In this document: positions 3,914-62,311 of the stretch, in pieces | Position numbering within the stretch: the first letter of the stretch is position 1 | Layout: every line of letters starts with the position of its first letter | NCBI GenBank assembly: GCA_002189035.1 | Contig: NEEC01000019.1 | Span: forward strand, 1,240,001 to 1,304,000 | From: Utricularia gibba | Lineage: Eukaryota > Streptophyta > Magnoliopsida > Lamiales > Lentibulariaceae | Length of the DNA: 64,000 bases | Direction of reading: 5' to 3' | Position numbers and translations under genes: made by a program | Notes under the pieces: model-generated | The model's database searches: none | Seen by the model: the letters and a program-made list of their open reading frames with translations, nothing else | Told to the model about the DNA's origin: nothing

Positions 3914-6064
3914 ATGGAGGAATCGTACGGAAGTCTCTCCGGCAGTCACTTTGTTGGCTCTGTTCCGGTAAAGCAACGCGGATTTCGCGATGATCTGTGT
4001 GTAGTGTTTTCATTGTGTGGCTAATTGCGTAATTTGAGCTTGATGGAGTTCTCCTCTTTTTCAATTTCTGTTTGATTTTGATATTGAATGTTGTGCTGTT
4101 TTGCCCGAGATTGTGTGTAATACAGCTAGTTTTATTCCGAGAACGGTTGTGATGAAATGGAGATAATTTTTTTCCAAATTGAAGTCTGCGTTTGGCGGTA
4201 TTTGCAATTCTTTTGGTTCTTGATCATGGTGTTATTAAATCGTTGCTATGGATCGATTTATGTGGCCAACTACTTGTGACCAGATTATTTACTTATCGAA
4301 CGACTATTTGCTGTTCAATGATTCCGTTGAAATCTTGGGTATCCTTTTGAACTTCCCTTCCGGCTCTAGTCATGCGGTTTGTTTTCATTCTTACCTGTCT
4401 ATTTTTTGCTCCAGGCTGCTATTAGTGGGGAAAAGAGAACTGATACACCTGAAGGTAAATGTTTTTTGGTCATATATGAAAAATTTTATATTGGTTTTCT
4501 TTTATCATGAGTTACTTAATGTGGATTGCACGATCATGCAGTCACAGATGCAAATTTGCAAACGTTCCCTCCGACTATTGCCAGAAGCGGGGACAAGGAT
4601 ATCAAACCATAGGCGAAAGCAGCGGTAATGTGGCACATTATGTATTATATAAAGATGCTCTGTGATTGCATATGATCCCTGACAATATGTCCTAACTGTA
4701 CCTTATGTTCTGTGCTAAGGGAATTTCATTAGGAAACCAGGAAATGCTTCATTTCATATATCCAGGGTTGTTGGAATCTTCTGTTGTGTCTTTGGACTAA
4801 ATTGTATTGCATTTCTTTCGAGTAAATGTACTATATTGATGTTGCATATCTACAGGAAAATGATTGATCACTATCTCTTTAGCATTTACTGAGTGTTGTT
4901 TGGCCTGAGGATTCTGTATGTTCATCAAGGTGATTTTTGCTTGCTCTGTTGCACTGAATCTTCTCGGAAATTTTGGTCATTTTGACAGATGCAGATCAAC
5001 AGCAATCAGCAAGCAACTGGAAAGGAGTGCTGAACGTTTCTTCATATACACAATATTTTAATGTAGACACAGATATCGTGTTGAACAGATTGCTTAGCTC
5101 CTTAAATCCTGTGAGTGGAGATTTTTCTCGAAAGATTGATGCAAACCCAGACCTGTAAGTTTTTGATTAGTCAACTTCCTTGAGGTTATATTTTAGTATA
5201 AATTTAACAACCTTCTTTCACACAAGTGATTTGTATGTCTAAGATGGTGAGTCAAAGAACTGATCTTCAATTTTAGAGGAAGAAACTGTTAGAATCCAAC
5301 GATCTTTCACATAAGTTATTGGTAGGATATAACGACACATGTAAGATGCTAAGGTATGCAGAACTGATTTCACTTTTAGAGGAAGAAACTATTAGAATCC
5401 AACGATGTTTATACGTTCTGTTGCTGGTGGTGCCACTTCTGCTCTTCATTACCGTTTTTTATTTGATTATTTTTCAGCTATGGACTTGTCTGGATCTCCA
5501 CAACATTGGTGTTTGCGGTTGCCGCCCTAGGAAACTGTGCTACCTACTTAATGAACAAAAGAAGTGACAGCACTACCGTTTGGGCTTTTGATGTAAACTA
5601 TGTAAATGTGGCAGCTACTGCAATCTATGGTTATGCGCTGGTAGTTCCTCTGGGATACTATTTTCTGCTCCAGTACCTGGGCTCTGGCGTCAGCCTCATT
5701 CGTATATGGTGCATGTGGGGATACTCCCTTTTCATCTTGATCCTGGTTTCTGTGAGTACCGGCTCTCATTTATACTATTTCCATTCCAAAGTTTTCACTG
5801 AAACCTTGTTAGATTCAGATTCCTATTATATTGCCAGTCACAGTAATTCTTGTTTCTTGGCTGTCCGTGCAGTTCCTTTTGATTATTCCATTTGAGTTTC
5901 TACGATGGACCCTGATTTTAATAGCTGGAGCTACATCTGCCAGCTTCGTTGGCTTGAACCTAAGATCATACATCCAAAGCAATGACCTTGTAATCGTGGC
6001 TGCCTCAGCATTTGTCCTGCAAATGGCTTTGTCCATCTTCATCAAGATGTGGTTCTTCCCCTAA
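3914..6064 (+). CDS. Yip1-domain integral membrane protein, YIP5/YIPF1-2 group (apparent 1-bp frameshift)
   Basis: Six exons are supported: 3914-3967, 4415-4454, 4542-4624, 4989-5154, 5478-5751 and 5873-6064. Yip1 proteins sit in Golgi/TGN membranes, bind Rab GTPases and assist vesicle trafficking. The cytosolic N-terminus (MEESYGSLSGSHFVGSVP) and the block WKGVLNVSSYTQYFNVDTD followed by IDANPDLYGLVWISTT match plant YIP5-type proteins. About five hydrophobic spans follow, and the protein ends in the motif KMWFFP. Exon 3 runs into a TAG unless one base is added in the GGGG at 4589-4592. With that base the exons sum to 810 nt (269 residues), the family length, and GQGYQTIGESS comes into frame. 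The stop codon is 161 bp from the convergent neighbour. Confidence 0.88.
5256..5412 (+). repeat. Tandem duplication inside intron 4 of the Yip1 gene
   Basis: Two copies of a roughly 50-bp unit lie about 104 bp apart, at 5256-5309 and 5360-5412. Both contain TTTTAGAGGAAGAAACT followed by an almost identical stretch ending in AGAATCCAACGAT. They differ at a few positions. They lie between exons 4 and 5 and do not touch the coding frame. Confidence 0.75.
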
Positions 6065-6225
6065 ATTCCTTGCTGCCTTTTCTCAGAATAGAGACATGGA
6101 ATGCTGATGATTTTGGATGTAGAATGTGATAGTCTCCCTACTCTCTATATCTGAACTAGAAGCTGCAAAAAAATTCAATTTACGACGAGGAGGAGAACAG
6201 AGAAAAATTGGCTGCAACCAACTTA

Positions 6226-7548
6226 TCACATGACTATCTCCGGGCTGAGTATGTCCCTTCTGATCTCCTTATTTGGCAGGATCACCCCTCCGTTGGTATA
6301 CACTTCATCAGCTACATGAACATCTTTCCCGAGCACGGTCATGTTGTCCACTCGCGCCCACCGGCCGACCGTCGAATGCCACCCGACGATACTTTTAGAA
6401 ACACAGGCATGTTTCTTGATCCAAGCCCCCCTCATCACAGTGCAGCTCGAGAGGCGAACACCGCCCTCGATCACACAGTCCTGTCCGATCACAACGTCCG
6501 GGCCGATCAAGCATCCTTCACCAATCTTGGCAGTCTCATCAATGAGCACATTGCCTAGTATGTGAGTGCCTGAGCTCAACTCAGGTGATGCTTTTTGCCG
6601 CAGGAAGTCCAAGTACAGCCTTAAACCAGCAATGTAGTCTCTTGGTTGTCCGATATCCATCCAGAAACCAGGTAACACCATTGCATACAGTTTCTTCTCC
6701 TGTGCAAGTTCAGGGAATACTTCCTTCTCAATGGATGTCGGGCGTAGCTCGATGCGATCGATAACGGATGGATCCAGCAGATACATGCCGGTGTTGATCT
6801 TGTTGCTGACGAACACCGTCGGCTTCTCCACGAATCTGTCGACGACGCCGGTCGCCTCATCCATTACAACAACCCCATACTTTGAAGGTTCATCCACCTG
6901 AACTCACCATACCAAATTGAAGAAGAAGTGAATACTACTGCAAAAATCAAGTAGGGTAAGCACCTAGACTAGAAGCTTTCCACGCATCCGTACCTTGGTC
7001 ACCATGATGGAAGCCTCACCACTGTGTGACTTATGGAACTCAATCAGCTGCTTCAGAGGGTATTCACTGATAACATCACTGTTAAGCACGAAGAATGGTT
7101 CATTAGAGTTGTTGATCAGTCTTTCTCTTGCTAGAGCAATTGGCCCTGCAGTTCCAAGAGGCTCTGATTCTTGAAAGCAAGTGATCTTTATTCCAAGCTT
7201 CTCCTTAAGTTCTTCCAGGAAGTTCAGCATTTCCTGAGGAGCATAGCAATGTGAACCAGAGCAGCTCAGAGGAAGCACATTCCAATAGGCGAATGAATGA
7301 TTCACCTGAGGTTGATAGCTGATCACAAGGACTACTTCTGTCACTCCAGCATCTTTCAGAGCTTCAATCTGATCACATCGAACCAGATGGATAAACTTGG
7401 CTAGCCAATGAATGAATGTAGTTTTAACAAAAGGTACCTGGTGCAGCAGCATGGGCTTGTTGCCCAAATCAATCAGTGGCTTTGGCACACTCAGTGTCAA
7501 AGGCCTCAGCCTGGTTCCAAAACCTCCGACAAGAATCAAAGCCTTCAT
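6226..7548 (-). CDS. CYT1: Mannose-1-phosphate guanylyltransferase (GDP-mannose pyrophosphorylase)
   Basis: Four exons on the minus strand (7438-7548, 7306-7368, 6994-7233, 6226-6897) join in phase to 361 residues, the same length as Arabidopsis CYT1/VTC1. It makes GDP-mannose from mannose-1-phosphate and GTP in the cytosol, feeding ascorbate synthesis, cell-wall mannans and N-glycosylation. The nucleotidyltransferase signature [11 protein letters not shown] is at residues 8-18, FVEKP at about 160-164 and [13 protein letters not shown] in the middle. The last 110 residues form the hexapeptide left-handed beta-helix ([14 protein letters not shown] and following). The initiator is the first ATG directly before KALILVGG. 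The gene is intact and convergent with the Yip1 gene. Confidence 0.97.
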
Positions 7549-9423
7549 TCTGGATCATATTAAACAGCATAAATAATGCAGCCATCGGAGAACCAACATT
7601 GCTTCATTGAATCATCACAAGAAACAACGAAAACTAGCTTTATAATGCCCTATCCCACAGGGGGTATTGACGACAGTGTACAGCCGCAAGAGCATTCAAA
7701 CAAACAGAAAATAGGCACTGAAAATCCTGCACCCAGAACACGTACAAACAAACCCATGCCATAATCATCGATTTTGCATGAAATTTTTGGACCTGATGCA
7801 ACAGAGTGGGATGGCGAGTCGACCCGAAAGGCCGGACTTGAGAAATTTCCCCTCAGTTCACGGCAATAAGCAGAGAAGAACCATCGGCAGCGGTAGCGTT
7901 TTATAGCATAGTATGTGCCAGTGGCGTTTTCGTGGAAAAGGGAGAGAGTATAGAGATTCGGAATCTGATTCTTTCCCAATGGAGGGTTCTTTACAATTTT
8001 AAATTATTATTTTGAAAATAAATATTTTAAAAATAAATTAGTATTTTTTTTATTTGTTAAAAATAGTCATCTGGCCACCGGAGAGGAAAGAGCGGAGGCC
8101 GTGGCTATGAACGGCTATGTTGTACGGGAAGTACCGTTATGGCATCCACCTGCAACTAAACTATTCTGAAGCGCTTGCCGACGATGGCGCATTTTAAAAA
8201 ACTCCATGTTCTTGCCTAAACTAAGAGTACACTTGCTGTCCCCAGTGCTGCTGTGACATGTATCTTGAGCAAGGTTTGTGCATATCCTTCAACAATGGCG
8301 AGGCTGGTGGGGATTTCATGGTGGTGGATATGACATCATGGAATGATATTGTTGAAGTCGCGACCGTGTTGTCGGTGAGGGAGGAATACGTAGAGGCGGG
8401 TAGAGCAAAAGGGGTCGTTTCTTTCCAAAGAGTTACGGCTGGCAGATCTGTTTATTTGAAAGGGAAACTATGATGGAGTTTGCTCTCCGGATTGTTGTCC
8501 TTCAGTGTCACAGAGTAAGTCCTTGAGGAATCCCAATCCCATTCTTGCCGCCCATCTTCCTTATAACCGCTGTTGGACCGCGGAGAAGGAGCATTCCAGC
8601 CACCGTACGTGGCTGATGATCGATGAATGAGAGTGGCTCCTGGGAGGAGAATATATAGAAATTCCATATAAATTGCCGCGCGGTGCTGTGATTTCGTTGA
8701 AACGCGAAAGAAGCGGCGTTTTTTATCCAAAACTCGGGAGTTTGTATCGCTTTCCGGGTAACTGATTGCTTTTTCACATACCCCTCAAGCGGTGCGACAA
8801 GTTATTACAGTCTGCAACTCATGAATCTGGTGCTTGAACTAGTGGGTTTGAATTCATATATATCTTATGCCTAGCGGAATGCGTGTTTGATGAGTTGAGG
8901 GCATTGGCAACGACTCTTCACTGCAACAGAGGCAGGTTCTGGGTAAAGAATTGATCTTTATTTTACCCAAATTAGTTTCTAATTACAATTGTAGGGGATG
9001 GACATTGAAACAATCTTTGACGAGTTTGTAAGAGGCTTGCCACTTGTGCGGTTACTCTTTCGTGACTGCAAAGCATCTCGCTGGTATTTTACATGGGGAA
9101 TGAAAATTTTACCTTGAAGGAAATACGCTATTTCGTATGGAAAACTGTGATATGCCTGGTAACAGATTTGATTGGCATTTATGTGCTTCATAGGGTTGAC
9201 TTCCATTTGCTTTGGAATCCATATTTGTCGGAGGCAGGGTTGGGCAATCTTGTCCCCACCACGGCACCACCCATCGAACCTAGGGGTCTTTAGTTCCTCA
9301 TCTTTTCATCTGCGTTGGCTCTCTGTACACAAAAACTGAAATCTCGTTGTTGCTCGTCGGAGAGTGCTGTGCTATATGAGCGTGTAAGCGTCTTCTGGGT
9401 TTATCCAAGTTTCACTGATAAAG
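7549..9423. other. Divergent intergenic region between CYT1 and FPGS
   Basis: This region separates two head-to-head genes and probably holds both promoters and 5' UTRs. The minus-strand frame at 7650-7979 lies where the CYT1 leader should be and shows no family features. A 71-codon plus frame at 8258-8473 is Met-initiated but unrecognised. A 60-bp A+T block is at 7990-8060. I see no convincing coding exon. Confidence 0.45.
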
Positions 9424-9606
9424 ATGGAGAAATTGCCACACGGTGAGGATTTCATTCAAGTTCTGGTTTTTCATTGGTTTTCGTTTAAAAAAAATTCACT
9501 TTGTGGGTAGTGTTTCGCTGAGGAAAATAAATGATTATCGAAGGCTGCTGCACTTACAGAATGAACCTATCTCCTTGTGCTGACACATGTTTTATTGTGA
9601 TTTCCT

Positions 9607-12418: not shown

Positions 12419-12777
12419 CAACACACGCAGCATATGAAATGGTGGCAGTTTGAAGATCAATTCCCATTTTCTTTTCTGTGTACTATGTGCCTTCTGATCC
12501 ACCTGCTTCCTCAAGAAACGAAGTGACAGCACATTTGGGAACAACTAAACACACACATGCACCAGAAGTCGTATTCTAATATACTTTCATCCTTTTAGAA
12601 ATGCAGCAACAATGACAGAGAGAGCTTAAGGTGGTTTAGCTACATCTGTTCAAACGGTTCCATATGGTTAATCATCTTTTCCATCTTCAAACAGGGCTAA
12701 GCTAATAATGGAGCAGCAGCAGCAGCAATGAGTTAGATGACTGAACCGGGCCTCGTGGTATGTTATGAATTGGTGCA
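12419..12777. other. Convergent 3' UTR spacer between FPGS and PP1
   Basis: The 359 bp between two stop codons contain no open frame of note. A short GCA/GCT-rich run is near 12710-12730. I expect both polyadenylation regions here. Confidence 0.5.
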
Positions 12778-14445
12778 TCAAAATCTGGTTGACAGCAACA
12801 GCTTGTTCTTCTGTTCTGCTGGCTTCAGAATTTGAAAAGAACAAATCAAATTTTCATCCACGCTCATCATTGCACCTGCGTTATCGAATTCTCCACAGTA
12901 GTTTGGCGCTGAAAAAACTGTAACAAGCTGTCTGTCCGCGAAAAACTCATAGCCATCTTCTACTACCTGGGAAGAAGCAATTTCAGGAGCCAGCAAAAAT
13001 GAGGAAACTGTATAAAAAAGCTCACCTGATGAGCACGACAAATGAGATCCAAATCATGTTTATCTAAGAACTCAGATACTTTGTCAGCTCCAAAGGTAAA
13101 TGAAACACCCCTATCATTCATCCCCCATCCCTTGAGAGTCCTACTGCCAGGATCAGACCACAGCAAATCACAGAGGAGACCATTGTCGGGATAGCAGATG
13201 GACGGGGTAGATTTTTTATCTGATCCAGGTTTTTGAGTTCGGGAGAAAGGCCGCCATGCATGCAGAGTATCTTTTCATCAACAAGTGCAGCAACGGGAAG
13301 GCAGTTAAAGCAATCAGTAAAGACTTTCCATAATTTCACATTGAAGCGACGCTTGCATTCATCATAGAAACCATATATCTTGTTTATGGAAGCACATTCA
13401 TGGTTTCCCCTAAGAAGGAAAAAGTTCTCTGGGTACTTGATTTTGTATGCAAGTAGCAGGCATATCGTCTCCAAGCTCTGCTTACCACGATCCACATAAT
13501 CACCCAAAAACAGGTAGTTGGATTTCGGGGGGAAACCACCACACTCAAAAAGCCTTAAGAGATCACTGTACTGCCCATGAATGTCACCTGCGAATGGATT
13601 TGGTTGCATCTTCTTAGCAACTCGGCACTCAGTTTCCATTGGAAAAAGTAATTCCATGCAGAGATGAGAGGGATCCACGTTCATGTGGGAACAAATAACA
13701 CAGCAATCGAATATTTCAAACTCCTGATGCTCAATGAGAATACCAGAATGGATGTACTTCATAAACCATGTAAAAAACAGCATATTCAAGAGCTCTCTGA
13801 ACCAACACTTTTCACCAAAAAGCATGACATTGCCTTACCAACCAAATAAAACTTGTAAAATTAGATAGAAGTGATTTAGCACAGCCAAGAAACACCCAAT
13901 GACGTGTGTCAAGGACACGAAGGTAAAAATCCCAGAGCCAAGTTCCCAAACAAAGGCCAAGCATATGATGAGCAATAAGTCAAAAGACACAGAAATCATG
14001 TTCATTTACATCAAAAGGAAAGCGAAAGGTTGTGATCAACACAAAAAAAAAAAGGAAAGCGAAAGGCCCCCCTGATAGCATGGAAAGCTGCATCCCTGAG
14101 CAAGTGATGTAGAAACGCAAGGAAGAAGCTGTAAGAAAATTCAATAAGTCTTGACACAATCATGCAACCTAGGAAGCAGAAAGCGTATTCCATCATCCAA
14201 GCCACGAACTTTCACTCATAACACCACCACAAAGCGCTTCAACCCAACCCGAAAAGCGAAAGCTCACCGCAGATCTTGATGGGTGCTTCGAGTTCAAGGA
14301 GATTAGGCTGACTTAGAAAAATCTCACGCGATGCCTTACACAGCAGCTTCATCTCAGACTCAACGAGCTGCACCGATTTCCCGGGCTTCCACGACCGAAC
14401 TTCAATCAGTTTCCCAATGATCCGATCCACCGCCTCAGGGTCCAT
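12778..14445 (-). CDS. TOPP: Serine/threonine protein phosphatase PP1 catalytic subunit, TOPP type (apparent 1-bp frameshift)
   Basis: Three minus-strand exons are 14268-14445, 13026-13587 and 12778-12966. PP1 is a Mn/Fe-Zn-dependent phosphatase whose specificity depends on regulatory subunits. All phosphoesterase motifs are present: GDIHGQ at residues 60-65, GDYVDRG near 88, RGNHE near 119, MHGGLSPEL, and DLICRAHQ before the last intron. In exon 2 the frame breaks at the GGG at 13188-13190 (CCC on the coding strand). Adding one C joins NLPRPSAIP to [10 protein letters not shown] and gives 309 residues, close to the usual 310-325. The start at 14445 (MDPEAVDRI) matches family N-termini; an in-frame upstream ATG at 14583 is probably untranslated leader. 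The protein diverges after FQILKPAEQ. Confidence 0.93.
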
Positions 14446-16054: not shown

Positions 16055-16118
16055 TTATTGATCGTATCAGATGCCTGAAACTTTCTTGTGAATGCTAAGC
16101 GGTAGCGGAGAGGAGACG

Positions 16119-16125: not shown

Positions 16126-16178
16126 GGGATGGCTTAGAAGGGAAGAGAGAGCTCTGCTTCTCGGGGCTTCTCCGTCCG

Positions 16179-18802: not shown

Positions 18803-19055
18803 TTGTGTGCTGTGTGTGTGTTTCTGCTGCTTACATGAATGAGGTTGTGGCAGGGGTCCGCCTGTGTTATATAAAAGAAGACAACTTGTCGAGTACAGTG
18901 CACTCCCATGTCCTCACAGGAAGAGACGAAGGCTCAAAAATGTCAAAGACATGTGTCCTGTGTTGTTGCACTTGCACTCCATCCCTCATACGACAAGCAA
19001 TGTCATACAGTAAAAATCAAGCTCAATACTTTTATAGTATATTTTATATTATAAG
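18803..19055. promoter_or_regulatory. Promoter region of the 18.4-18.8 kb gene
   Basis: It contains the minus-strand TATA-like TATATAA at 18867-18873. Plus-strand frames here are not gene-like. Confidence 0.4.
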
Positions 19056-19288
19056 CAGTGTTCTGAAAATTTTTTAAAATATATTTTTATTTTTTAAAAG
19101 TAAAAAATAGTTTTGTTCTACAATAATATTAATTGTAAAAGTAATTTTATCAAAAAAACTTTTAAAATTATAACTACAAAAGTAATTTTTGAAAAAGTAA
19201 AAAATTGATTATTTTTACTTTTTATTTCTATTTTTTAAAAATAATTTGAAAAAATAAAAATAGATTTCAAAAATTTTTCAGAACACTG
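19056..19288. mobile_element. MITE-like element with terminal inverted repeats
   Basis: The element starts CAGTGTTCTGAAAATTTTT and ends with its near-perfect inverted complement, finishing CAGAACACTG. The 233-bp interior is almost pure A/T, is itself partly self-complementary (runs of TTTTTAAAA, AAAAGTAA and TTACTTTTT) and has no coding capacity. A TATAGTATAT string occurs just outside both ends, but not flush with them, so I cannot define the target-site duplication. The structure fits a non-autonomous DNA transposon. Confidence 0.7.
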
Positions 19289-19512
19289 GTATAGTATATA
19301 TATTGTACTATCACTCATATATTTATTTTTTGAGTATGTAATTGATATACAAAAATAAAGTGAGAGGGGGAAGAAGGTTAATTATATCTATATCAATCAT
19401 ATATTGATATTTTTATTTTCGAATATGAAACGTAATATATAATTAAAATATATAAATTTCTAATTACATTATAATTATATATATTAATACTACACTATCA
19501 AACGAATTCTTA
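19289..19512. repeat. Dispersed A+T-rich repeat B, copy 1
   Basis: This stretch aligns by eye with 48396-48620. Shared landmarks in order are CATATATTTATTTTTTGA-like, AAGTGAGAGGGGGAAG/AAGTAGAGGGAGC, TTAATTATATCTATA, CATATAT, ATATATAATT and AATTACATTATAATTA. Its right end reads ACTATCAAAC, the inverse of GTTTGATAGT near the left side of the other copy. It abuts the MITE-like element. It has no coding capacity. Confidence 0.55.
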
Positions 19513-23860: not shown

Positions 23861-24627
23861 TTACTTTTTGCCGCTTTTCTTCAGGCCTGAACCCCCAAAT
23901 GCCCCCTTCTGCTGAGCTTTAGCTTTGAGATCCTTTAGGGCCTGCCAAAGAATACCAGTTATATGTTGGACAAGTTTTTGGTTTTGATCAACTGAATTCT
24001 CACCTTTTCTTCATCCTTCTTCTTCTGAATATTAGCTTTGTCAATCTGCAAGGAAGAAAAACTTCATCCAGGATATACACAGATAAATAAATCAACACAA
24101 GATACTGTCACACACGCACACAACTACAGGAGATATAGTCATCATCTTGATTTCATTTTACTTTTGCATTGGAGGTGAACAATCATGATACAATTGGTGG
24201 ATCCCTCATCACCAAATCATTAGATTTCCATGAGTTCTCTTTACTTATCAGAGGTGACCCTCTTGACTTTTCAGACCAAACACCAAAGACACAATAAACT
24301 ACCAGGATACAGATAAAGAAAATCACACATTTAGACTTGCAATCAGACCGCGTGACACAGAACGTAAAGATTTTCCAAGCCTCCGGCGAACCACAGACAC
24401 CAGGAGCAGAGACAACTACAAAATCATCTAACTCTACCTCATCGTACTCCTTCTTTTCGACCTTCGGCTGCTTCAAAGGCTTTGCTTTACCCCCTGATTC
24501 AATTTCAAGAAAACAAAAGACGATTTAAGCAACACGGGTCGCGATTGGGTCTCAAAATTAATTCACACATCTTCAAAAAAGACGCAATCCCAACATAACA
24601 TAGGCAGAAACCTTGTTTCGAAGACAT
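23861..24627 (-). CDS. TMA7: Translation machinery-associated protein TMA7 (apparent 1-bp insertion)
   Basis: Four minus-strand exons are 24612-24627, 24438-24494, 24004-24045 and 23861-23941. The product is the small, highly charged ribosome-associated protein TMA7 (CCDC72), 64 residues in plants and animals. Visible pieces are MSSKQ, GKAKPLKQPKVEKKEYDE, IDKANIQKKKDEEK and KGAFGGSGLKKSGKK at the C-terminus. Exon 2 begins with five G after the CAG acceptor. Joined to exon 1 this gives GGG GGG TAA, a stop; with four G the frame runs on to exactly 64 residues. I therefore suspect one surplus base at 24490-24494. The gene is divergent from the RPC31-like gene. Confidence 0.88.
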
Positions 24628-26646: not shown

Positions 26647-27856
26647 ATGGAGCACCTGAATGAGGAGGAAATAGGAAAAATCAAGCAGATTTTTGATGAA
26701 CTGGATATGGATAGAAATGGTATGCGGACTTTCTTCTCTCGCTCGTACTGATGTTGAAACCTTCTCTAGCTGCTTTTCTTGATCGCGATGACTGAATTTT
26801 TTACATTTTTATGTTCTGTTTAGATCTATTTCACATAATTTGGAGTTTCAGTTTCTACTTTTCTTGTTTTCCGTAATTGCTTCCTTCTTATATTGGATCA
26901 GCATTCTCATCCACTTTGTCAAATTATTTTTCGTTTTCACAAGCATTCGCTGTTTTTCACATATAGCATCATTAGAATAGCTGGATCTTCATGTTCTTCA
27001 ATCGATAAAAACTCAAGTACCTTGTATGTCAAGGTTTTCTGGTTTCCAGTAGAATCCAGGAAGTCTTTTGATACAACTATTACTGGTTGTTGTGAAACTA
27101 CTCGGTGATTTCATAGTTTTCCAAAAAACCATATCCCGGTTCTGATGTAGGTTTCATCAAAGCTGATGAGCTGGAGTCTGTCATGAAGGCTCTTGGACGG
27201 AATTATACTGAAGATGAGCTTAATGAAACGTTGATTGAGTTTCACACTGATCCAGATGGTGACATTGACTTAACTCAGTGTACTAACATGGTGGCTTACA
27301 CATTCAGTGTAACTTGGATTCTGAACTTTCATCTTCACACTGATTCATATTTCTCCTTTAGTTTACCATGTCTTCCTTTTCTTCAAGTTCTTTCCCTGCA
27401 TATGTAGCTCAGGTTCACAATCTGTATTTCTTTACTTCTTTCCGTATGCATTTATCTCGTCACATGTATCTGCAGAGGTTCCTTTCTCCAGCAAGTACTA
27501 CAGCTGCCATCTCCGAGATGAACTCACCATCTCTGGAATCGTTCTTAATGATTGCTTCAGACGAGATGGACTCCTTTGAGGCAGAGATTGTCATAAAATA
27601 CCTAAAGGAAGGCATACAAAATGCCTTGCATTCCAAGGATCTTGGAAAGACAAAGAAACTTGTAGAATCCTTGATTGATATGCATATCCAAGAGCTCACT
27701 CGTGGCCTGTCTGAGAAAAAACAGCTGAACAAGTTTCCACTCTCCAGAATCCTAGGCTTCCTGAATTTCATAACTGTGGTATGCCTCTTCATCGTTTTGT
27801 TCTTCTCCTCAGGAGCCAAGGAAACAACATATTACTCAGGGCCAAGACCAACATGA
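26647..27856 (+). CDS. EF-hand protein with C-terminal membrane anchor (non-canonical or damaged splice site)
   Basis: Proposed exons are 26647-26719, 27151-27278, 27362-27412 and 27476-27856 (210 residues). EF-hand 1 is canonical (DMDRNGFIKADE). The second loop (HTDPDGDIDLTQ) has degenerate first and last positions. A Ser-rich linker follows, then a charged helical region (DEMDSFEAEIVIKYLKEG). A hydrophobic segment (GFLNFITVVCLFIVLFF) lies near the C-terminus and looks like a tail anchor. The exon 2/3 junction is in frame only if exon 2 ends CAG before TGTACT. The missing G of a GT donor may be another lost base. A different architecture, or two separate genes, cannot be excluded. I do not recognise the full-length family. 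Confidence 0.6.
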
Positions 27857-28842: not shown

Positions 28843-30439
28843 TTGAAGCTCATCATCGTGGCCACGGTACTTCTCCTGAGCTCACCGTCCACCGGTGAGC
28901 TGCTGAGAATCCGGCATCCAATCAACGGCGACGACACTCTCCAGTTCCTGGTCGTCGGAGACTGGGGACGGAAGGGGGGTACAACCAAACTGAAGTTGCT
29001 TCTCAGGTACGTACCACCGCCTCTGTATATGTATTATGGATTCTTTTGTACTAGTAGAATTCTTGGAGACGTCAAAGGGGTTGATCCCAAGTCAGTTATA
29101 TAGATAGACTACCGTGTTTCAAGGTCGGAGAGTGGAGCCAAACTGTGGAGACTCGGGGCTGCGAATTGCCAGATGACTGTGTGTCATTTTAACGAACATG
29201 GTGGTTATATTTAGTTACTGTGGTTGATCAGATGGGTAGAGTTGGGGAGGAGTTGGCAATCGATTTCGTCGTTTCGACGGGGGATAACTTCTACGAAGAT
29301 GGGCTCACCGGGGTGAACGATCTGAACTTTTTGGAGTCATTCGCCGACATCTACACAGCCCCCAGCTTGCAGAAGCCATGGTTCTCCGGTAACTACATCA
29401 CCTTTTTAATCATCACTGCAGGTATTTGTGTTCATTTTTTAATTTAATTTCGTATGATCAGTCCTGGGAAACCATGACTACAGAGGCGATGTGTTGGCGC
29501 AGCTTTCACCTTCCCTTAGAGCAATCGACCACCGATGGGTGTGCTTCAGATCCTTCATACTTCATTCAGGTATCAATCACATTCCTGGATTTTGGATTCA
29601 GCTCTGCTCATTTTGTATAACGAAGTTCATCAAATTCACTCGGGGATGCTCGACAGGTGCTGTTGAGTTATTCTTCGTGGACACAAGTCCATTCGTGAAG
29701 TCATACGTTTCAAGTACCAAGGAGGATTACGATTGGCGGAGGATTACTCCACTAGATGAATACACTGCCAACCTATTGAAGGTACAAAGATGTTGCTGCA
29801 AACATCCACACTTTTTCTTCTTCCCATTTTCAGTCCCTCCTCTTTTCTGCTAAGTTCATGTTGACCGTAGGATTTGGATTCAGCATTGAGGAAGTCAAAA
29901 GCGGCTTGGAGACTTGTTATAGGCCATCACACGTTGAGAAGCGCCGGCCATCATGGTGATACCAAGGAGCTCGTTGATCTCTTCCTCCCCATTCTTCGAG
30001 TACGTTTTTTCTTCTTTCTTTCCTTTCCTTTCATGTGTTGGGTCCATCGACGTCCTCATTGGTAATGTTGATGATGATGCACGTATGCAGAACAATCACG
30101 TAGACTTCTATATAAATGGACACGATCACAATCTTCAGCGTATCAAGGATCGAAAAAGGTACCAATGAAGTGGATACTTTGATAGACTTCAGACACGTTA
30201 CATACAAGTGATTCATGTTGCAGCGAGACGGAGTTTCTGACAAGCGGAGGGGGCTCTAAGGCATGGAGAGGCGACATAAAAGAGATTGATGAGGGGAGGA
30301 AGAGTTGAAGTTTCTATACGATGGACAAGGATTCATGAGCGTCCAAATTACACCTCTTGAGGCACATTTTGTGTTCTATGATGTTGGTGGGGCGATTCTG
30401 CACCAATGGACTAATCACAAGGCTGATGCTGCTCTCTAA
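28819..30439 (+). CDS. Purple acid phosphatase, PAP17/PAP3/PAP8 (type 5) group (two apparent 1-bp deletions)
   Basis: Seven exons are 28819-29006, 29232-29388, 29462-29569, 29657-29781, 29871-29999, 30091-30158 and 30224-30439. The product is a low-molecular-weight secreted metallophosphatase. After eight Met codons comes a signal peptide (LKLIIVATVLLLSS). All metal-ligand motifs are visible: VVGDWG, STGDNFYEDG, LGNHDYRG, VIGHHTLRSAGHHG and NGHDHNLQ, plus TSGGGSKAW and FLYDGQGFMSV near the end. Two breaks need one extra base each: the G6 run at 28974-28979, where restoring frame gives GYNQTEVASQ before MGRVGEEL, and the G4 run at 30293-30296 before LKFLYDGQ. Corrected length is 330 residues, typical for the group. 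It may be a recent pseudogene, but both breaks are in G runs and everything else is conserved. Confidence 0.9.
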
Positions 30440-37020: not shown

Positions 37021-38813
37021 ATGGGAGGCGTCACTTCATCCATGGCAGCAAAGTTGGCTTTTTTCCCGCCAATGCCACCAAGCTACAAGCTTGTGACTGA
37101 TGAATTGACGGGCTTATTGCTCTTACACCCTTATCCCCATAGGGAAAATGTTCAGATTCTCAAGCTTGCAACACGCAGGGCCACGGAAATTGTTGCCATG
37201 TACGTGACCTACCCCATGGCTACTTCCACGCTTCTCTATTCTCATGGTAATGCTGCAGATATTGGTCAGATGTACGAGCTCTTTATCGAGCTTAGCATTC
37301 ATCTCAAAGTTAATATCATGGGGTAATTTCCTCTATTCTTCTTATCAATTTAATTGCTGTCAACTATGGGGGTCTAAGATACATTTCTCTTGGGTAGCAT
37401 TCATGTTGGAATACATGGATAAGATTAGTGATCATCTTTATTTTGATGCTGTTAGACATAAATGTCTTCATACACAAAACATAACTAGAAGGTGTGTTGT
37501 TTGTACTTATTCTCCTCAGGTATGATTACTCTGGCTATGGACAGTCATCTGGGAAGGTACTGGAAAACAAATAAAAATGATGAGATTTTACTTTTTTTGT
37601 TCCTTTCCAAGATGCAAGGTGTAAAAGTTCATGAAATCTATTATCGCAGCCAAGTGAGCATAACACCTATGCAGACATAGAAGCTGCATATAAGTGTCTT
37701 GAAGAGTTTTATGGAACCAAGCAAGAAGATGTTATCCTCTATGGTCAGTCTGTTGGTAGCGGCCCTACAGTGGATCTGGCTTCTCGTTTGCCTCGACTTA
37801 AGGCAGTTGTTTTGCATAGTCCTATTTCATCAGGCTTAAGAGTTATGTATCCTGTGAAGCGAACATATTGGTTTGACATCTATAAGGTGAGTATGTTGAT
37901 GGTGAACGCATAGCATATCTATGCATCAATGTTTCCCTGTCAAGTTCTTAGGAAAAAAAAATCGGTCCTCTCTAAAATTCAAGTGATTTTTTTTTTTTTT
38001 TTTTTGCAGAATATCGACAAAATCCCTTGGTGAAGTGTCCTGTTCTAATTATTCATGTAAGTTCTGTCATGAGGCTATATGGGATCAACTTCATTTTCTG
38101 GATTGTCCAGTTTTACGTGAGTATGTTATATGATATTCGGTGTTTAAGAGAGTCTAAACTTGGCAGGTTTCCGCTCTAAACTGTGGGTTTATTCTTTCAG
38201 TTCACTATGCATATTGTGATGTGTAGTATCTTAAACCTTTCATAACCTGCTAGAAGTGAATATCTTTCTTAACTTTTTGCACATTTTGATGGTCGACAAC
38301 ACCGGGTTGTTTCAGGGTACCGCTGACGATGTGGTTGATTTTTCCCATGGAAAACAACTTTACGAACTCTGCCAGGAGAAGTACGAGCCCCTTTGGATAA
38401 AGGGAGGCAACCACTGCAACTTAGAGCTGTACCCGGAGTACATCAAGCACCTGAAAAAGTTCATAACATACGTTGAGAAGCCTTTGTCGGTGAGGAAGTA
38501 TTCAAGACACAGTGTAGACCGTTCCGACCAGTTCCGAAGCACTTTTACCAGCATGGGGACTCCCAGAAACAGCACAGATCAGCGAGAGAAGCCTAGACGC
38601 AGCATTGACAAACCCAAAGTGTTGGAATTCAAGTTCCATAGCAGCAACAACAGATTCTCCAAACAGAAGCTGTCACTGGATCAACTGGATCGATCGAGAA
38701 GAAGTGTAGAATACCACCTCGAGAAGCCGAGGAGAAGCACCAGCATTGAGTTCGAGTTTGAGAAAGCCCGGAAAAGCATGGACTGGATGGATAGGCTCCG
38801 GCCAACTAATTGA
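37021..38813 (+). CDS. ABHD17-like alpha/beta hydrolase (apparent 1-bp frameshift)
   Basis: Five exons are 37021-37322, 37520-37556, 37650-37886, 38010-38056 and 38316-38813. Relatives in animals are acyl-protein thioesterases that remove palmitate from membrane proteins. The fold is clear: [32 protein letters not shown], the nucleophile elbow [11 protein letters not shown] (Ser about 147), [13 protein letters not shown] (acid near 212) and GGNHCNLE (His about 241). Exon 4 reads NIDKIP and then TGG TGA. Adding one C to the CCC at 38024-38026 gives the family sequence [13 protein letters not shown] and a total of 373 residues. The C-terminal 100 residues form a basic tail with repeated RRS and KPRRS motifs. 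MGG at the start may allow N-myristoylation. The ATG at 37021 is the first with conserved sequence. Confidence 0.9.
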
Positions 38814-52100: not shown

Positions 52101-52622
52101 ACAATGATTTTAGATCTCTGTTATATGTGCCTTCACTTTAATTATCAGGATGTTTTGTTATAGATTCAGCAACTCTGAAGGTTTCCTTTTTCTGTTCTTC
52201 CAAGCTTATTAAAATCCATTCTCCAATGCGTGCGGACCCAAACCGGGTTGTCAAATGGGTACCAAGCCGCAGCTTGATCACTGCAGCCCGAATTGCCTCC
52301 GAGAAGTTGTTAAAGTACAGTAAAATCCTCCAAAACTCACTAATTGTATTTCCCTCAATCGCTTCTTAAAAGACCGGTGCTTGTGTTGGATTTGTACTAA
52401 AACTTTGTTTTGTTTTGGGTTGACAGGAGAGTCGGAGCTGGATTTTCAGATCCTCTAGCTGCTTGCTCAATCCTGGCCAAACACGAAAAGAGCAAGGAAG
52501 AAAAGCTCACACAGTTATCATATTCTGATGCCTCTATTATTTATGCACGAGGTGCCACCATCACCATGTATCCTATGGAGCACCATCCTGGACACGGCCT
52601 TCTCTGTGTCCTACGTGTCTGA
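49149..52622 (+). CDS. SIA2: Sialyltransferase-like Golgi glycosyltransferase (GT29), SIA2 type
   Basis: Twelve exons join in phase to 440 residues: 49149-49236, 49349-49422, 49885-49974, 50059-50136, 50335-50435, 50914-51106, 51191-51281, 51356-51420, 51660-51814, 51894-51975, 52205-52314 and 52427-52622. The N-terminus ([20 protein letters not shown]) is a type II signal anchor for the Golgi. A sialyl-motif L-like block is present ([19 protein letters not shown]), followed by an S-like block ([20 protein letters not shown] with MYGF) and a region ending [17 protein letters not shown]. The stretch [18 protein letters not shown] is plant-specific. Plants lack clear sialic acid, so the acceptor is probably a pectic or arabinogalactan glycan. 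The gene is intact. Confidence 0.94.
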
Positions 52623-53615: not shown

Positions 53616-55323
53616 ATGATAGATGCTGGGACAGCCGAGAAGAAGGCGTTCGTTACGCAGCAGGCGGAGGTCCTTGAGCAGCTTCAATCCCTTCTTGAAT
53701 CGGCTTCGCAAGTCCAAATCTTGAAGGGGAAATGGCTGCAAATAGCCAACAAAGTCACCACTCTGGAGACCCGTCTCTTGGACCTCTCAGTTTCGGAAAT
53801 GGAGGTCAACCCACTTTCGTCCGAGCTCATGGCCTCGATTTCCGGCAGCTGCTCCGTCGCCTCCTCCCTCGCCGTCGTCTGTCGTTCGCTTGCTCCGCCG
53901 GGCGGGAAGCTTAATACCCAGAACAAGGTCGATTCTTTATGCGCTGAACTCGATGCTCAAATAAACGATCTGGACGTTCTTATGAAAACCGGAGTTATAT
54001 CAGAGACGGCGTCTGTTTCCACAGCGGTTGTATCATCCGGTAAAAGGGATTCCGTTCGGGTCGAGACCCGGAATTTGATGACCCGTCTTCAGATCGGATC
54101 AACTGAATCTAGAAGCTCTGCGCTTGATTCCCTCCTGGGCCTCTTACAGGAGGATGATAAGAATGTTCTGATTGCGGTGGCACAAGGAATAGTTCCCGTC
54201 TTAGTGCACCTGTTGGATTCCAGTTTCTCCCATGAAATCAAGGAGAAAACAGTGACGGCGATTGCAAAAATCTCATCTTTGGATTCAAGCAAGCACGTCC
54301 TTCTCTGTGAAGGTCTAGTTTTGCTGAATGATCTGATGCGAGTGCTCGAATCCGGAAGCATTTTCGCCAAGGAGAAGTCGTGCATCGCTCTGAGAGTCCT
54401 GAGCACATCAAAGGAAAACGCAAGGGCGATCGGTTCCAGAGGTGGGATCTCCTCTTTGCTTGAGATTTGTCAAGAAGGTACTCCCAATTCACAAGCTTTA
54501 GCAGCTGGGGTTCTCAGAAACTTAGCTGTTTTCGAGGAAATCAAAGACAACTTTCTAGAGGAAGACGCAGTGTTGATCCTGTTAGGAGTGTGCAATTCAG
54601 GGACTGCGTTAGCGCAGGAAAACTCAATCGGTGTTTAAACAATTTGATATCTGGGGACGACGATCTGAAACTGTTCCTTGCAAAAGAAGGTGGCATCGAG
54701 AGTCTGAAGCATTTCTGGGATTCCTGTCCAAACGCACAGACCCTCGAAGTCGCGGTTCAAATGGTCGCAACAATGGCGACTTGCCCCAAAGTTGCAGAGC
54801 TTCTTGTCGGAGATGGTTTTCTCGTCCGTCTGGTTACCCTGTTGAATTCCTGTTTCCTCGGCGTCAGAATCGCCGCCGCAAAAGGGCTCTGCCATTTGGC
54901 TCACAGCAGTAAAACAGTAAAAGAATTGGGTGAAATCGGCGCCATCCCTCTCCTCGTCGCCATGCTCGACAACAAAGCCGTCGAGGAGAAGAAATCTGCG
55001 GCCAAACTTCTGTCAATCGCGATGACCTGCTCAGGGAACCGAAGGATCTACCGCAAGCAAGAGAAGAACATCGTCACCACCGTCAAAATGCTGGATTCCT
55101 CACTGGAGATCATCGATAAACTGTACTTGGTCAGCACACTGGCGCCGTCGTGCATCATAACCGGAGCAGGAAGCAGATGATCTCCGCCGGCGCCGGCGGT
55201 TACCTGCAGCGGCTCGTGGACGCCGACCTCCATCCTGCCAAGAAGCTTCTGGAGGGTCTACAGAGCAGCAAGCCATGGCGAGTCTTCGCCAAGGCTTCTT
55301 CCAGACCAGTCACGCCTCCTTGA
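53616..55323 (+). CDS. Armadillo-repeat protein, intronless (two apparent 1-bp deletions)
   Basis: An intronless gene whose three in-frame segments give 569 residues if one base is restored at each of two points. These are GG at 54630-54631 (joining AQENSIG to CLNNLISGDDDLKLFL) and near 55141-55146 (joining the STLA end to VVHHNRSRKQM). The first 150 residues are helical and resemble the N-terminal domain of plant ARM proteins. ARM repeats follow from about residue 160 (SALDSLLGLLQEDDKNVLIA and AAGVLRNLAVFEEIKDN are examples). The C-terminus YLQRLVDADLHPAKKLLEGL plus PWRVFAK is a conserved ending of this plant family. ARM proteins are protein-interaction scaffolds; there is no U-box, so ubiquitin ligase activity is not expected. 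The exact partner is unknown. Confidence 0.85.
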
Positions 55324-55866
55324 CACGGTGTATGTACGAGTGTCCATCTCTCTGCATACGTACGCGTCGCCGTGTCGGGCCGTACAATGTGCATTCCATT
55401 TACCACAGTTAACGCTTGACAAATGACGTGTGATTCGTGGTCTCCGTTTGGTTAGCAATTCAGCACGTGAATTAAACCAGTGAAATGGACAACTCACCTC
55501 TTACAAAATCAAAATGAAATTTTTGAAATAAATGTAATAAATGTCCATTATTGTTTTTAAATAAATTCAAAAAATTAAATAAAAATAAAACGCAATAAGG
55601 GAATAAATAAATACCCCATGGACCTATGAATTGGACATGTGCAGGAAATTACTTCAAGTTCTCACATGTCAAATCGCGTCTATAATGAATATAAATTCTA
55701 ATAAAATAAAAATTAAAAATCTGTAATTTCTTAAAATAAAAATATTATAAAAATATTTTTTAAAAGTACCTTTTTAAACATGATCCTACAAGAATGAATT
55801 TTGTTTACTTGTCTAACCTGAGCAAAACAGAAGGCTCAAAACTGAAGCCCATGTTCTAAAAGATGA
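55324..55866. other. Convergent spacer between the ARM and PPR genes
   Basis: The first 120 bases are ARM 3' UTR; the rest is A+T-rich with no usable frame. Confidence 0.5.
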
Positions 55867-58096
55867 TCAAGTCTCCATATGTTTACACTCTTCGTCTACT
55901 TTCCCCACAGCTTCCAGTATGGATGAGTATGTAATCAGGTTGTATTCAAATCCACCCGATCGCATCTCCTTCATTAGCCTTGCAGCTTCTTCAAACATAC
56001 CAGCACGGCTGAGGCAACCCAACAGGGTGTTATACGAAACGGCATCTGGTTTCGTATTCGAATTCTTCATCTTATTGAACATCTCGATTGCTCTTTCTGG
56101 GCTGGTGGCTTTGGCCAGGCCATTCAACACAATGTTGTGAGAGTTCAGATCAGGGGTGCAGCCATTTTCTTGCATCTTTCGTAGCAATGACTGAGCCTCA
56201 TCAGCTAGGCCGGCTCTTACCATCCCAGACATTAGTGCATTGTATGCATAGACATCAGGGTGGCAGCCAAGTCTCTTCATCTCATCGAAAAGATCAATGG
56301 CCTCTGCTAATCGACCACACTTGCTGTACTGCTTTATCATCACAGCATACACACGAGCAGTTGATGAGCCACAGTTTTCTTTGAGTTCTTGGAACAGCTC
56401 ACGGGCAGCATCATAACGTTTAGCTCGACCAAGGCTGTTTATTAAGCTGCAGTATGCAGCTGGACATGGTGGATGACCCTTTTCATCCATCTCCTCAAGC
56501 ATCAACAATGCTTTCTCCAAGTTGCCTTTCTTGCAGAACCCATCTATTACAATAGAATAGGTGTAAGAGCTAGGAGTCAGACCACTCGCCTTCATTTTCT
56601 CATACCATGCAGTTATATCGCAAACTGGGGCTTTCGATTCAATGAGAGCCTTAATAATAGTGTTGTAAGTCACAGCATTTGGCTTACATCCTAAAGACTC
56701 CATTTTGTTGAAGAGCTCGATAGCATCAGCTAAACGTCCTCCCTTGCCTAAGATATTTATCACATTGTTCATGAGTACTACATCTGGCTTCAAGCCACCA
56801 TTAAGCATGCCAAAAATATCGAGTATGCTTCTTCAACCCTGCCTGCAGAACCAAGCCCTCTTATAATTTCAGTATATGTATACACTGTTGGTACACAACC
56901 TTTGGCCTTCATCTCTTGGACTAATCCTAACGCCTTTTCAACCGTACCTTGTTTGAAGTAAACCCTAATAAAGACGTATATATCTTCGCAGTTGCATTTA
57001 AACTGTTATCTTTCATTTCTTCAAACAGCCTGATTGCCAAATGATCACGCCCCAATTTAGCGTAGGCAGAAATTAGAGCACTGTACGTTACTGTATCAGG
57101 AAGGCAGCTACCTTCGTTACACATTTCATTGTACAGCTCGTGAACTTTGTCATATTGACCCTCCTGCATCAACATCAGTATCATAGCGTTATAAGTGCCA
57201 ACAGTCGGTTTGCACTTGCGATTCTTAATCTGGTAAAATGCCAGCAATGCTTTATTCACCATCTTGACCCGGCCAAGAACTCTTATTATCTTGATCATAT
57301 CAGCTTGACCAATAGGGCATGAGCTCTTGATCATTTCTTGAATCGTCTTCCATAATCCACCGACTAGACCAGCTTCCTCTAAACAACGGAGTAAAGCAAT
57401 GTACGTAGAAGAATCATGCTCAAAATTTCTTCTCTTCCCAGCCCACTTGAAGAACTGCACTTTCACACTAACGTCTACATCTACCTGCAAAACCTCAAGG
57501 ACAAGCCTATGGTCAACTCTCAATTTCAAAACTTCCAGGGCTTTTTCCGCATCTGCACCCCATTTAAATATCTTCAATATCCTTATAAACCTTTCGTCGA
57601 GCACCCTCCCTGCATTGTTTCTCCTTCTGGATGGATGCACACCAAAACCTGATCCATCCTCTTTTGGAATCCCCGCGGTGAACATTTGAACAATTTCATT
57701 TTCTGGATTGGGCAAGCAAGAATCAATGGCAACAATTGTAAGAAATTCCCGCAAATACAGCATCCAAAGTTGGCCACATAAAAAATGCAATCCTTACGAC
57801 CATACCAACCAACTGATAATACAACAAAAATGAAAATATACTGAGAAGAAAAACCATACGGCACTGAAGGGCACTCATTACCCCACTTCACCTGTTTGCT
57901 TTATTCTCTCGCATAGAATGTGGGAATGGGAGAAGAACCGCGGGAATATACACTGAATCAAGCCCGAATTCGAGCTTGAGAAGATTTGTTCCCGGCAACT
58001 ATGCATCACCCCCTTACAAAACCACCAACACAAATCCGACAAGAAATCTTCAAGCCATTGCCAAAACCGCAGACAACGGATCATTAACAACAGCAA
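55867..58096 (-). CDS. P-class PPR protein, homologue of Arabidopsis At3g16010 (two apparent 1-bp deletions)
   Basis: Two minus-strand exons (57892-58096 and 55867-57702) join in phase 1. One base must be restored at the CCC at 56963-56965 and one at the A5 run at 56812-56816. The repaired gene has 680 residues. Block after block follows the At3g16010 pattern as I know it: FFKWAGKRRNFEHDSSTYI, NRKCKPTVGTYNAMILMLM, CLPDTVTYSALISAYAKLGR, DEKGHPPCPAAYCSLIN, DVYAYNALMSGMVRAGLADE, NSHNIVLNGLAKA and GFEYNLITYSSILEAVGKVD. Roughly fourteen PPR motifs are seen, with no E or DYW domain. Mitochondrial RNA binding is the expected role. The start codon in exon 1 is uncertain: several Met residues are near 58096, and the N-terminal 70 residues are not conserved. 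Confidence 0.88.
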
Positions 58097-58818
58097 CTAC
58101 GAACACCCTTCTTTCTGGGCAGTTGGGCCCTCGGTTCAAGCATGAACATTTCGAAACAGACCAGGCCCATTGGCCCAAATCTACCTGATAAAATAAAATT
58201 TCAAATTAAATAAATTTATAAATCTTATTTCATGTAACAAATATAATGGTTTCAGTATCGAACACATAAAACTTATACTAAAGTTCATACAAATGTACGT
58301 AAAACTCAAACATGGAGATCATAAAAATTTAATGATTCACATAAAACCACGATCGTTTTATACAATATTATCTGTTTTGGACATATAATTATTATGATTT
58401 TATATTTTTATAAAATTAAGAAATTTTCTCTATTTAAGTACGTTTTCTTTATATCCATACCAATGTGGAATATTGTTATAAGGCCCCTGACTTTATATTA
58501 TGAAGATTATAAAACATTAACGGACTTGCATAAAACTCAAAACACAAATGGTGTACATGAAGATGGCTCTAATGAAAGTTTAGTAGAGGGCGGTTTTGAT
58601 ATTGTGGTGACGTGAAACTCTGAAAACATTGACTTGTTGGTACGTGGAGTGCCTTGAGGAATACTCTCTTGTTACTCAAAAACTATTATTTTTCCGTTGG
58701 AAACCTTCTTCCTGAGCTGCACGTAAGCCCCTGGTTTTGGTCGCATGAGATATTCGACAAATTTATTCAACTCACGAGAGGTGAAATTTGGGAAGCTCCA
58801 TCCATTTCTTAGCCCATT

Positions 58819-58837
58819 GTGAACTGATTCAGTTCAC
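58819..58837. repeat. Perfect 19-bp palindrome
   Basis: GTGAACTGATTCAGTTCAC has two 9-bp arms around a single central T/A base. It lies 440 bp upstream of the SWEET start. It could be a binding site for a dimeric factor; there is no direct evidence. Confidence 0.7.
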
Positions 58838-59067
58838 CTAAAGATAGCCATCATCTGCAGATTGTTAACTGAACTGTTGACAGTCGTAATCCTGTGCTTA
58901 TTGTTCCCTTAATCCCGATTCTCATTTCCTTACCTTCCTTGGAGCTCATTCAGTTCTAGAAGCGCTGTTAAAACGACCAAGGTGCTAGTTTTGATGCAAA
59001 AGAATGGGAATTGGAGAGATGGAAAGAATGTGGGTAAAACCCAAATTTGGAAGAGGGGTGAAACATT

Positions 59068-59182
59068 GTATTGTTGAAATTCATAATCTGATACATCACA
59101 CGAATACATTTAAAATTCAAGTATATATGAATCGTATATCATATTAGAAAATATGTGTTATCGTTTGTTCTAATTCATATTA
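59068..59182. repeat. Dispersed A+T-rich repeat A, copy 5 (short)
   Basis: It starts GTATTGTTGAAATTCATAAT and continues with CTGATACATCACACGAATAC, then ATCATATTAGAAAATATGTG, and ends CGTTTGTTCTAATTCATAT. It lacks the TTTTTTATATATTTAATTATT part seen in the other copies, so it is internally deleted. It ends about 25 bp from the SWEET TATA box. Confidence 0.6.
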
Positions 59183-59206
59183 GCGTCATGTTTTCTTTGT
59201 TTGGTC

Positions 59207-59214
59207 TATAAATA
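59207..59214 (+). promoter_or_regulatory. TATA box of the SWEET gene
   Basis: TATAAATA lies 64-71 bp upstream of the SWEET ATG, a standard position for a short-leader plant gene. Confidence 0.7.
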
Positions 59215-59277
59215 GTTGCATCTCTTCATGGTTGGTAGTTTCATTTTGTGTGAGCAGTTGGAAGCTCCAAGGCTGGG

Positions 59278-60491
59278 ATGGCAATTTTCAGAGAGCACCA
59301 CGACTGGGCGAATGTTTTTGGTGTTCTTGGTAATGATCAATGTGGTCGAAATTTGATCTCCCTGCTCTTGATTCATTTAACGAACTTGATGAAAAACTGC
59401 CTACTCAGGAAATGTCACCTCAGTCATGGTGTATCTTTCTCCCATGTAAGCAGCAAAACCCTCTCTACCTGAGCTTTTCTGTGTGTTTTTGAATGCTTCA
59501 CGAGCAGACGTCTGTGTTGCAGGCCGAGCTTTTATCGAATACATAAGAAGAGATCCAGTGAAGGGTTTCAGTCCCTGCCCTACGTGGTCTCCCTCTTCAG
59601 CTCCATGCTGTGGATGTACTACGCGCTTCTCAAGGACACGAGCTACATCATCACCATAAACGCGTTCGGGTGCTTCATCCAGACGATGTACATCGCTTTG
59701 TTCTTCTTCTACGCGCAGCGGGAAGCGAGGGTATGTCTCCGATCATCGAAAGCTTTCGTCTTTTTCATTTAGGGTTTACGCCGGAGCCTGTGTGGCGCCT
59801 GCAGCTACACACCTTGACGGCGGTGGTGCTGGTGCCTCTGTTGGGTTTTGGATTGATGTGTGGGTTAACTCTGTGGCTGATTCCAAACCCAGAAAGGCAG
59901 ACAGTTGTGGGATGGATCTGCCTTGTCTCCTCTGTCTTCGTGTTTGTTGCGCCGCTGTGCGTGATGGTAAGTAAGGAAGCCTCGCTTCGTTTCAACACCA
60001 CGCTGCCGGTTTCTTCACCGGCGTTTGATTGCAGGGACAGGTGATCAGGACGAGGAGTGTGGAGCACATGCCGTTTCTGCTATCCCTTTTCCTAACAGTC
60101 AGTGCAGTCATGTGGTTCCTGTACGGCCTCACCATCAGCGACATCAACATCGCTGTAAGTCTCATCGGAAGAACCAAATCTCCACCATCAATCAGATTAT
60201 CAACTGCTTCTAAAACGGGGATACGGATGGTTTCCATTGCATGTTTCTGCTGCTGAAATGACTAACCAACTGCTTGTTCCTGGATCCCAGATTCCGAATG
60301 TCGTGGGCTTCACCTTAGGAGTTCTGCAGATCGCCCTCTACATGTGCTACAAAGATGCGAACAGAGTCGATAAGGTTGCTGAGAATGAAGCACATGCCAC
60401 CGTTCTCGAGAATGAGAGGATCCCACAAACCCTGAAGCTGGCCGTGATACCCTCCGACGACATCCGCCTTGACGACGCTCATCGACCGTGA
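59278..60491 (+). CDS. SWEET: SWEET sugar transporter (MtN3/saliva family)
   Basis: Six exons (59278-59329, 59409-59445, 59523-59730, 59805-59966, 60035-60154, 60291-60491) join in phase to 259 residues. SWEETs are facilitators of sugar export made of two three-helix MtN3 repeats joined by a linker helix. Repeat 1 has [37 protein letters not shown] and [16 protein letters not shown]. Repeat 2 has [39 protein letters not shown] and [15 protein letters not shown] hydrophilic tail of about 45 residues follows. The VEHMPF and SEGFQSLPY signatures and the tail suggest clade III (sucrose type), which I hold loosely. Exon 4 was placed at the CTGCAG acceptor because the upstream TTTAG gives a stop. 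The gene is intact. Confidence 0.94.
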
Positions 60492-60985
60492 AATCCGCCG
60501 CCGCCGCCGTGCCGTTTCTGTACCATGCGTATGCTTATTAAGTATCAATTAAAAAGGGAGGCTCTAGCTGGTAAATAAAGCCCAACAAAGGATCGAGATG
60601 GGCCTTTAAGAAAGCCTAACACCTACTGGACCATTTAATAATGGCCCAGCAGAATTTTCCTTCATTTTAAATAATCAAAACAATGATTAAAATATCCATG
60701 AAATATTTTATAGTCTAATTTTAATGTTTAATATTTTATTTATAACTTTATGTTTAATTTTGGAAAATTAATGTTGCGAAGTGTACGGTAGTACATATTT
60801 TTATCTGCAATAAAAAAACAAACTACATTTAATTTGACCATTAAATTTACGAAAATTAAAAAAGGTGGAATAATATAAAAAGGCGAGCGTAATAACCCTT
60901 TTTTTTTAAAAAAATGTAATAATAATAATAATAATAATATAGACATCACTTGATTTTGATGGCCGGGTGAGTTGAGTGACGGAGA
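60492..60985. other. Convergent spacer between SWEET and TPD1-like genes
   Basis: 3' flanks of both genes. An (AAT)n-type run (about seven units) lies at 60918-60940. No gene is present. Confidence 0.5.
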
Positions 60986-62311
60986 CTAGCACTTAACGGC
61001 GGCGACGTCAAGATTGTAACGGAAGGTGTTGGCGTACTGAAACGACAGCGTCCTCCCGTTAAGTAACGGCTTCCCGGCGTTAACGAGGCAGTCGTTGAAG
61101 CGGAGGCGTTTGAAAACACGGGGTTTATGAGTCGGGCGGAGCTGAACCATCCGCAGCTCAGATGTATCCCGCCGACGTCGCACCCCGTCGCGCACACGTT
61201 CATGATCTCCACGGTGTACGTCGGAATCCCATTCGGGAGCGGGGCGCTGGAACCTTGACTGATCACGATGTCCGACTTGGAACACTTTTCGCTCCATATC
61301 CTGGCCGGCTCCATCTTCTCTGCCAACACCAATCTAATGGTGAGATGAGAGAAAGAGAAGAAGAATAATGGGGGAATAAAATAGAATACACTCGAATTCC
61401 CACTGTAAAGTCGCTGTTAAGAAGACATTAATGGCGGATGGAGGCTTTTGGTCTGCGCAGGACAGGAAATATGCATTAAAAAAACCGTTGCCATGGTCTT
61501 ATGGTTCGACACACACGTGCCAATGCGAGCTAGGAATTCAGACCACACCGAGCACTGTAGAATCATAAGGCTGTTGTCGCATCCCAAGTAAAAAAGTTGC
61601 AGAAATTCAAAGCCAGGAGAAGGGGAAGGCAAAGGCTGAGGGTGTACAGAGGGGCTCAGTAGACAGATCACAATACCCAGAAAGTGTCGTACGCAAACAA
61701 GCAAAAGACAATTCAAAAAGTAAACTAGTAGCAGAGTGTGTGTGCACTGAGTCTCCATCTCCCTGTTTTGGGTTCAGATAAAGCGGGTTTTGAGACAGAT
61801 CCGAAATGGGTATTTGCTACAGAGGTCTGTCTTCCACTTCAGATCTCAGAAACTCAATCAAGACGATGATGTAAAAGGGTAGATTGTTTGTTTACCTTGG
61901 CTCATCAGCTTCCTGTGTGCAGGCCAGAGAGTCCCGTTGTGTGTGGTGATGGGGGTGGTGGGTTCAGTTGGAACTGGGAAGTACTCCATTGCTGCAAAGT
62001 TCGGGAATAATTGAAGATTAGATTAAACAAGGGATGGAGATAAGAGGACAGTGAACAAGATGAGAATTATTGGGTGCGAGAATTAATCACTTGTAGCTGT
62101 AAAAGATCGCAATAATCGAAGGAGAATTGCATTATTCTACCAACCGATCATTTAAACAGCTACATGAAGCGCGACCCACAAACCCAGAAGACGCACTCAA
62201 TGCTTCTGGTTTTCTCCTTTTACCTGCAAATAATCCGATGGTTACCAGCAAGAGCAACGCCGCCGTGGATATCGCTCCTCGCCGCCGTGAGCAAAATGAG
62301 CGGGAACCCAT
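60986..62311 (-). CDS. TPD1: TPD1/TDL1/MAC1-like secreted cysteine-rich peptide (apparent 1-bp deletion)
   Basis: Three minus-strand exons (62224-62311, 61896-61991, 60986-61319) join in phase. Exon 1 encodes [11 protein letters not shown] and a hydrophobic signal segment ([13 protein letters not shown]). Exon 2 is a variable spacer ending HRKLMSQ. Exon 3 is the conserved ligand domain: [53 protein letters not shown], then [20 protein letters not shown] and a C-terminal KC. Six cysteines sit at the family positions. After INP one C must be added to the GGGG at 61120-61123 (CCCC on the coding strand), which gives 172 residues. In Arabidopsis and grasses TPD1/MAC1 is the ligand of the EMS1/MSP1 receptor kinase that specifies tapetum and limits sporogenous cells. 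A paralogue with another tissue role is possible. Confidence 0.9.

Follow-up and report, generated by a model that had tools for sequence, protein, structure and literature searches.

The broken reading frames in this part of the Utricularia gibba assembly are almost certainly residual consensus errors in which runs of G or C have been under-counted, and these errors extend genome-wide. The window, a stretch of 64,000 nucleotides carrying plant genes (C142:1240001-1304000), belongs to an assembly of 100.09 Mb in 516 contigs. A first-pass annotation had listed twelve frame or splice breaks within it, eleven read as losses and one as a surplus base, which were taken to break the frame of eight genes and to remove a splice donor from one more. 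Ten of the twelve sites proved to be one base short. All ten are single-base losses, and they lie in seven genes, encoding a YIP4-like protein, a PPP phosphatase, a purple acid phosphatase (two losses), an alpha/beta hydrolase, an ARM protein (two losses), a PPR protein (two losses) and a TPD1-like protein; the other two sites, at 24490 and 27278, splice normally.

Each of the ten sites was checked through an intact paralogue, an alignment to Pfam or PDB, or splice phase, and the window copies were compared with a collinear ohnologous block on C409 as well as with other paralogues. This block stems from an older genome duplication, spans about 58 kb (window 9107-63143 against C409:2259911-2317825) and is strongly fractionated. 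In the YIP4-like gene (Yip1 family, forward strand), the loss lies in a G run at 4589-4592: the exon at 4542-4624 measures 83 nt between two phase-1 junctions, where the flanking phases require a multiple of three, the upstream frame then meets a stop, and the downstream exon matches PF04893. A C run on the gene strand is shortened at 13188-13190 in the PPP-family Ser/Thr phosphatase (reverse strand), whose PF00149 match is divided over frames (6-134 and 134-189); two paralogues, on C451 and C2, carry one extra base at this position. The purple acid phosphatase (forward strand) has lost one base in each of two G runs, at 28974-28979 and 30293-30296, and its joined frame pieces align end to end with 1ute (6-295), crossing both sites. 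At four sites the C409 ohnologue carries exactly one more base and keeps its frame. The sites are the C run at 38024-38026 in the alpha/beta hydrolase (forward strand, assigned from its fold family), the losses at 54630-54631 and 55141-55146 in the ARM-repeat protein (forward strand, DUF7032/Arm in Pfam), both ambiguous as to the exact base, and the C run of the gene strand at 61120-61123 in the TPD1-like gene (reverse strand). At the last of these the additional base is also present in paralogues on C321 and C1, and the PF24068 (TPD1_C) match is divided over frames (1-61 and 52-97). The repeat array of the PPR protein (reverse strand) carries on through three frames across losses at 56812-56816 and 56963-56965; the latter is most simply placed in a G run of the gene strand, and the former, whose base is not placeable, may fall in an A/T run or an adjoining G/C pair.

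The two remaining sites are ordinary splice signals. The supposed surplus base at 24490-24494 (reverse strand) belongs to the acceptor of TMA7 intron 1, and with its GT-AG introns this gene encodes a complete protein of 64 aa that covers PF09072 (1-62 of 62). The donor thought to be lost at 27278 is present: a GT at 27278-27279 is matched by an acceptor AG at 27476-27477, and splicing out this GT-AG intron (27278-27477, forward strand) leaves the EF-hand gene with an open frame of 192 aa that contains a full EF-hand pair. Since both sites were misreadings, every true event in the window is a loss, with ten in 18.2 kb of coding sequence and no gain.

The first-pass annotation placed most sites in G or C runs, and the losses depend steeply on the length of such runs. 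Within the window's 18.2 kb of coding sequence, the shortened share of G/C runs was 0.08%, 0.4%, 4.5% and 27% for true lengths of 2, 3, 4 and 5, respectively, rates that are approximate because the exon boundaries and true lengths behind them were in part assigned by eye or by hand. Of the 163 A/T runs of at least four bases, none was clearly shortened (Fisher p = 0.0004); the case at 56812 is ambiguous. The run-length spectrum of 132 kb contains one G/C run of at least seven bases, where about 4.7 would be expected under a first-order Markov model; this scarcity is suggestive only as a sign of shortening.

Nine near-identical copies of a young LTR element, found at nine loci on eight contigs and totalling 17.4 kb, provide a test that is free of coding selection. 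The copies differ pairwise by 0-2 substitutions over 1.95 kb. Among them, a single private substitution compares with six private losses of one base each, every one in a G/C run: three fall in CC, two in CCC and one in GGGGG. A search for gains within the aligned stretch found none. A further G6/G5 difference is common to four copies, and one T run varies too. In natural mutation, substitutions far outnumber indels; the copies are too alike for so many natural indels. Three of the six private losses fall in one copy (L012, on the 30-kb contig C343), perhaps reflecting lower coverage of small contigs. The element (L010-L022) is present at no fewer than ten loci, with nine copies nearly identical to one another, and the window itself holds a remnant about 91% identical to its LTR (2312-2756). 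Other repeats in the window are a palindromic MITE-like sequence at 19053-19307, which matches other contigs on both strands, and a dispersed repeat at about 63423-63800, whose dozens of copies, spread over many contigs, are 71-79% identical.

The same losses were found in genes elsewhere in the assembly. GRAS genes mostly lack introns; 13 of them, on 12 contigs, are divided by 15 frame shifts, and 25 give an unbroken match to the profile, a count that leaves out a few fragments too decayed for judgement. When the junctions were read, each of the 15 shifts corresponded to a one-base loss, five of them within or adjoining the G/C-rich codons that specify the RPGGPP motif, and the intact control motifs fetched for comparison read through in a single frame. 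Two other apparent GRAS breaks (C4:1155 and C1:1229) are introns. Four reference paralogues also carry one such loss each (PP2C on C375, GMPP on C1, PPP on C2 and FPGS on C409). The four samples together yield 35 losses and no gains, most of the losses being assignable to G or C runs, and chance is excluded as the cause of this loss-only pattern. As a separate observation, five of the roughly 27 contigs seen measure exact multiples of 2,500 (C1, 8500000; C2, 6192500; C409, 2492500; C505, 3452500; C507, 642500), as if cut at fixed bins.

These samples place the pattern, previously described as window-wide, in a broader setting: it is present in the window but extends across the genome, through GRAS genes, paralogues and LTR copies. 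It is accordingly improbable that the assembly is accurate elsewhere and of low quality only locally in this window, for instance through a dip in coverage. The ten losses do appear dense for 18.2 kb of coding sequence, and a search for PPR genes elsewhere recovered top-scoring domains whose open frames are mostly long, at about 330-1176 aa, which had raised the idea of a local hotspot. However, the density is comparable in the nine LTR copies at other loci (0.3-0.6 per kb, or 6-10 per 17.4 kb, against 0.55 per kb in the window coding sequence), and comparable losses occur in the GRAS genes and the four paralogues on many contigs, so the hotspot was dropped. The long PPR frames indicate instead that many genes escape and that exposure differs among genes.

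A still smaller probability attaches to the proposal that these are very young but real pseudogenes, whose frames were lost when replication slipped naturally in G/C runs. Long runs of this kind are naturally prone to slippage, and such loss could be tolerated where duplicates are retained, the C409 ohnologues being intact for several of the genes. Natural slippage of this sort is nevertheless hard to reconcile with 35 losses and no gains, with ten window events that are all of one base, and with the lack of in-frame stops in the five ARM and TPD1 pieces. Ka/Ks is 0.06-0.26 in four of these five pieces, as a pairwise value in which changes are not assignable to one copy; in the TPD1 piece past the break, Ks is 0.06 and Ka 0.11, a small sample with few synonymous changes in which purifying selection is not evident. 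Moreover, a single type of event would have had to kill about a third of the GRAS genes at once, and young LTR copies nearly without substitutions bear the same losses. The preference of the first-pass annotation for consensus or base-calling errors over young pseudogenes is therefore supported by the genome-wide losses, the non-genic repeat copies and the dependence on G/C run length.

We give hardly any credence to the view that the losses are real and that expression corrects the frame, whether through slippage in transcription, ribosomal frameshifting or RNA editing. The protein is indeed recognizable, and mostly conserved, on both sides of each break; yet the affected runs of G or C range in length from 2 to 7 and have no slippery motif in common, homologues have no conserved slippery site between them, paralogues keep their frame at the corresponding positions and need no such device, and non-genic repeats show the same losses. 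Just as implausible is a genome in which G/C-run contractions are real, widespread and tolerated through run-length correction in transcription or translation.

According to the consensus-error explanation, the assembly consensus counts one base too few in single-base runs, nearly always of G or C, with a chance of under-counting that climbs steeply with run length. A run shortened in this way inside an exon makes the gene seem to lose its frame, and such errors are scattered genome-wide at about one per 2-3 kb. The affected genes are most likely intact in the living plant, accurate reads would be expected to show the longer runs, and the source data were presumably noisy long reads that had not received full short-read polishing. 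By extrapolation, this rate of false losses would amount to some tens of thousands of errors in the assembly, in which roughly one third of GRAS genes appear broken. Our search of the literature for frameshift problems known in this genome found none. Claims of gene loss or pseudogenization from this genome that depend on a single-base frameshift in a G/C run should first be checked against reads or transcripts.

The losses described here resemble the homopolymer errors of long-read consensus sequences in being single-base, mainly-loss indels in runs, in becoming more probable with run length (from 0.08% to 27%), and in occurring regardless of locus or coding status, as in the LTR copies and on many contigs. 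Homopolymer length errors are the commonest residual errors in long-read-only assemblies (PMC8812927), and in one long-read assembly false deletions at homopolymers made up most of the indels (PMC12007338); single-base losses, a rise with run length and genome-wide gene fragmentation are features shared with the present case (PMC8812927, PMC12007338). Against this likeness, the strong G/C preference seen here is not universal among long reads: the assembly in PMC12007338 had more errors in A/T runs and a weaker preference for G/C runs than ours, and SMRT indels were not homopolymer-specific (PMC5873921), so the platform is not fixed by the pattern. SMRT (PacBio) assemblies polished with Quiver share rare substitutions, single-base indels as the main residual error and the possibility of false frameshifts, but their rate was 5.7e-5 per bp (PMC5873921), whereas the rate here is about five to ten times higher and only here is there a tie to homopolymers. 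Young pseudogenes likewise have a broken frame in otherwise recognizable genes; unlike them, the sites reported here show no in-frame stops or multi-base lesions, consist of losses only, and have counterparts in non-genic repeats.
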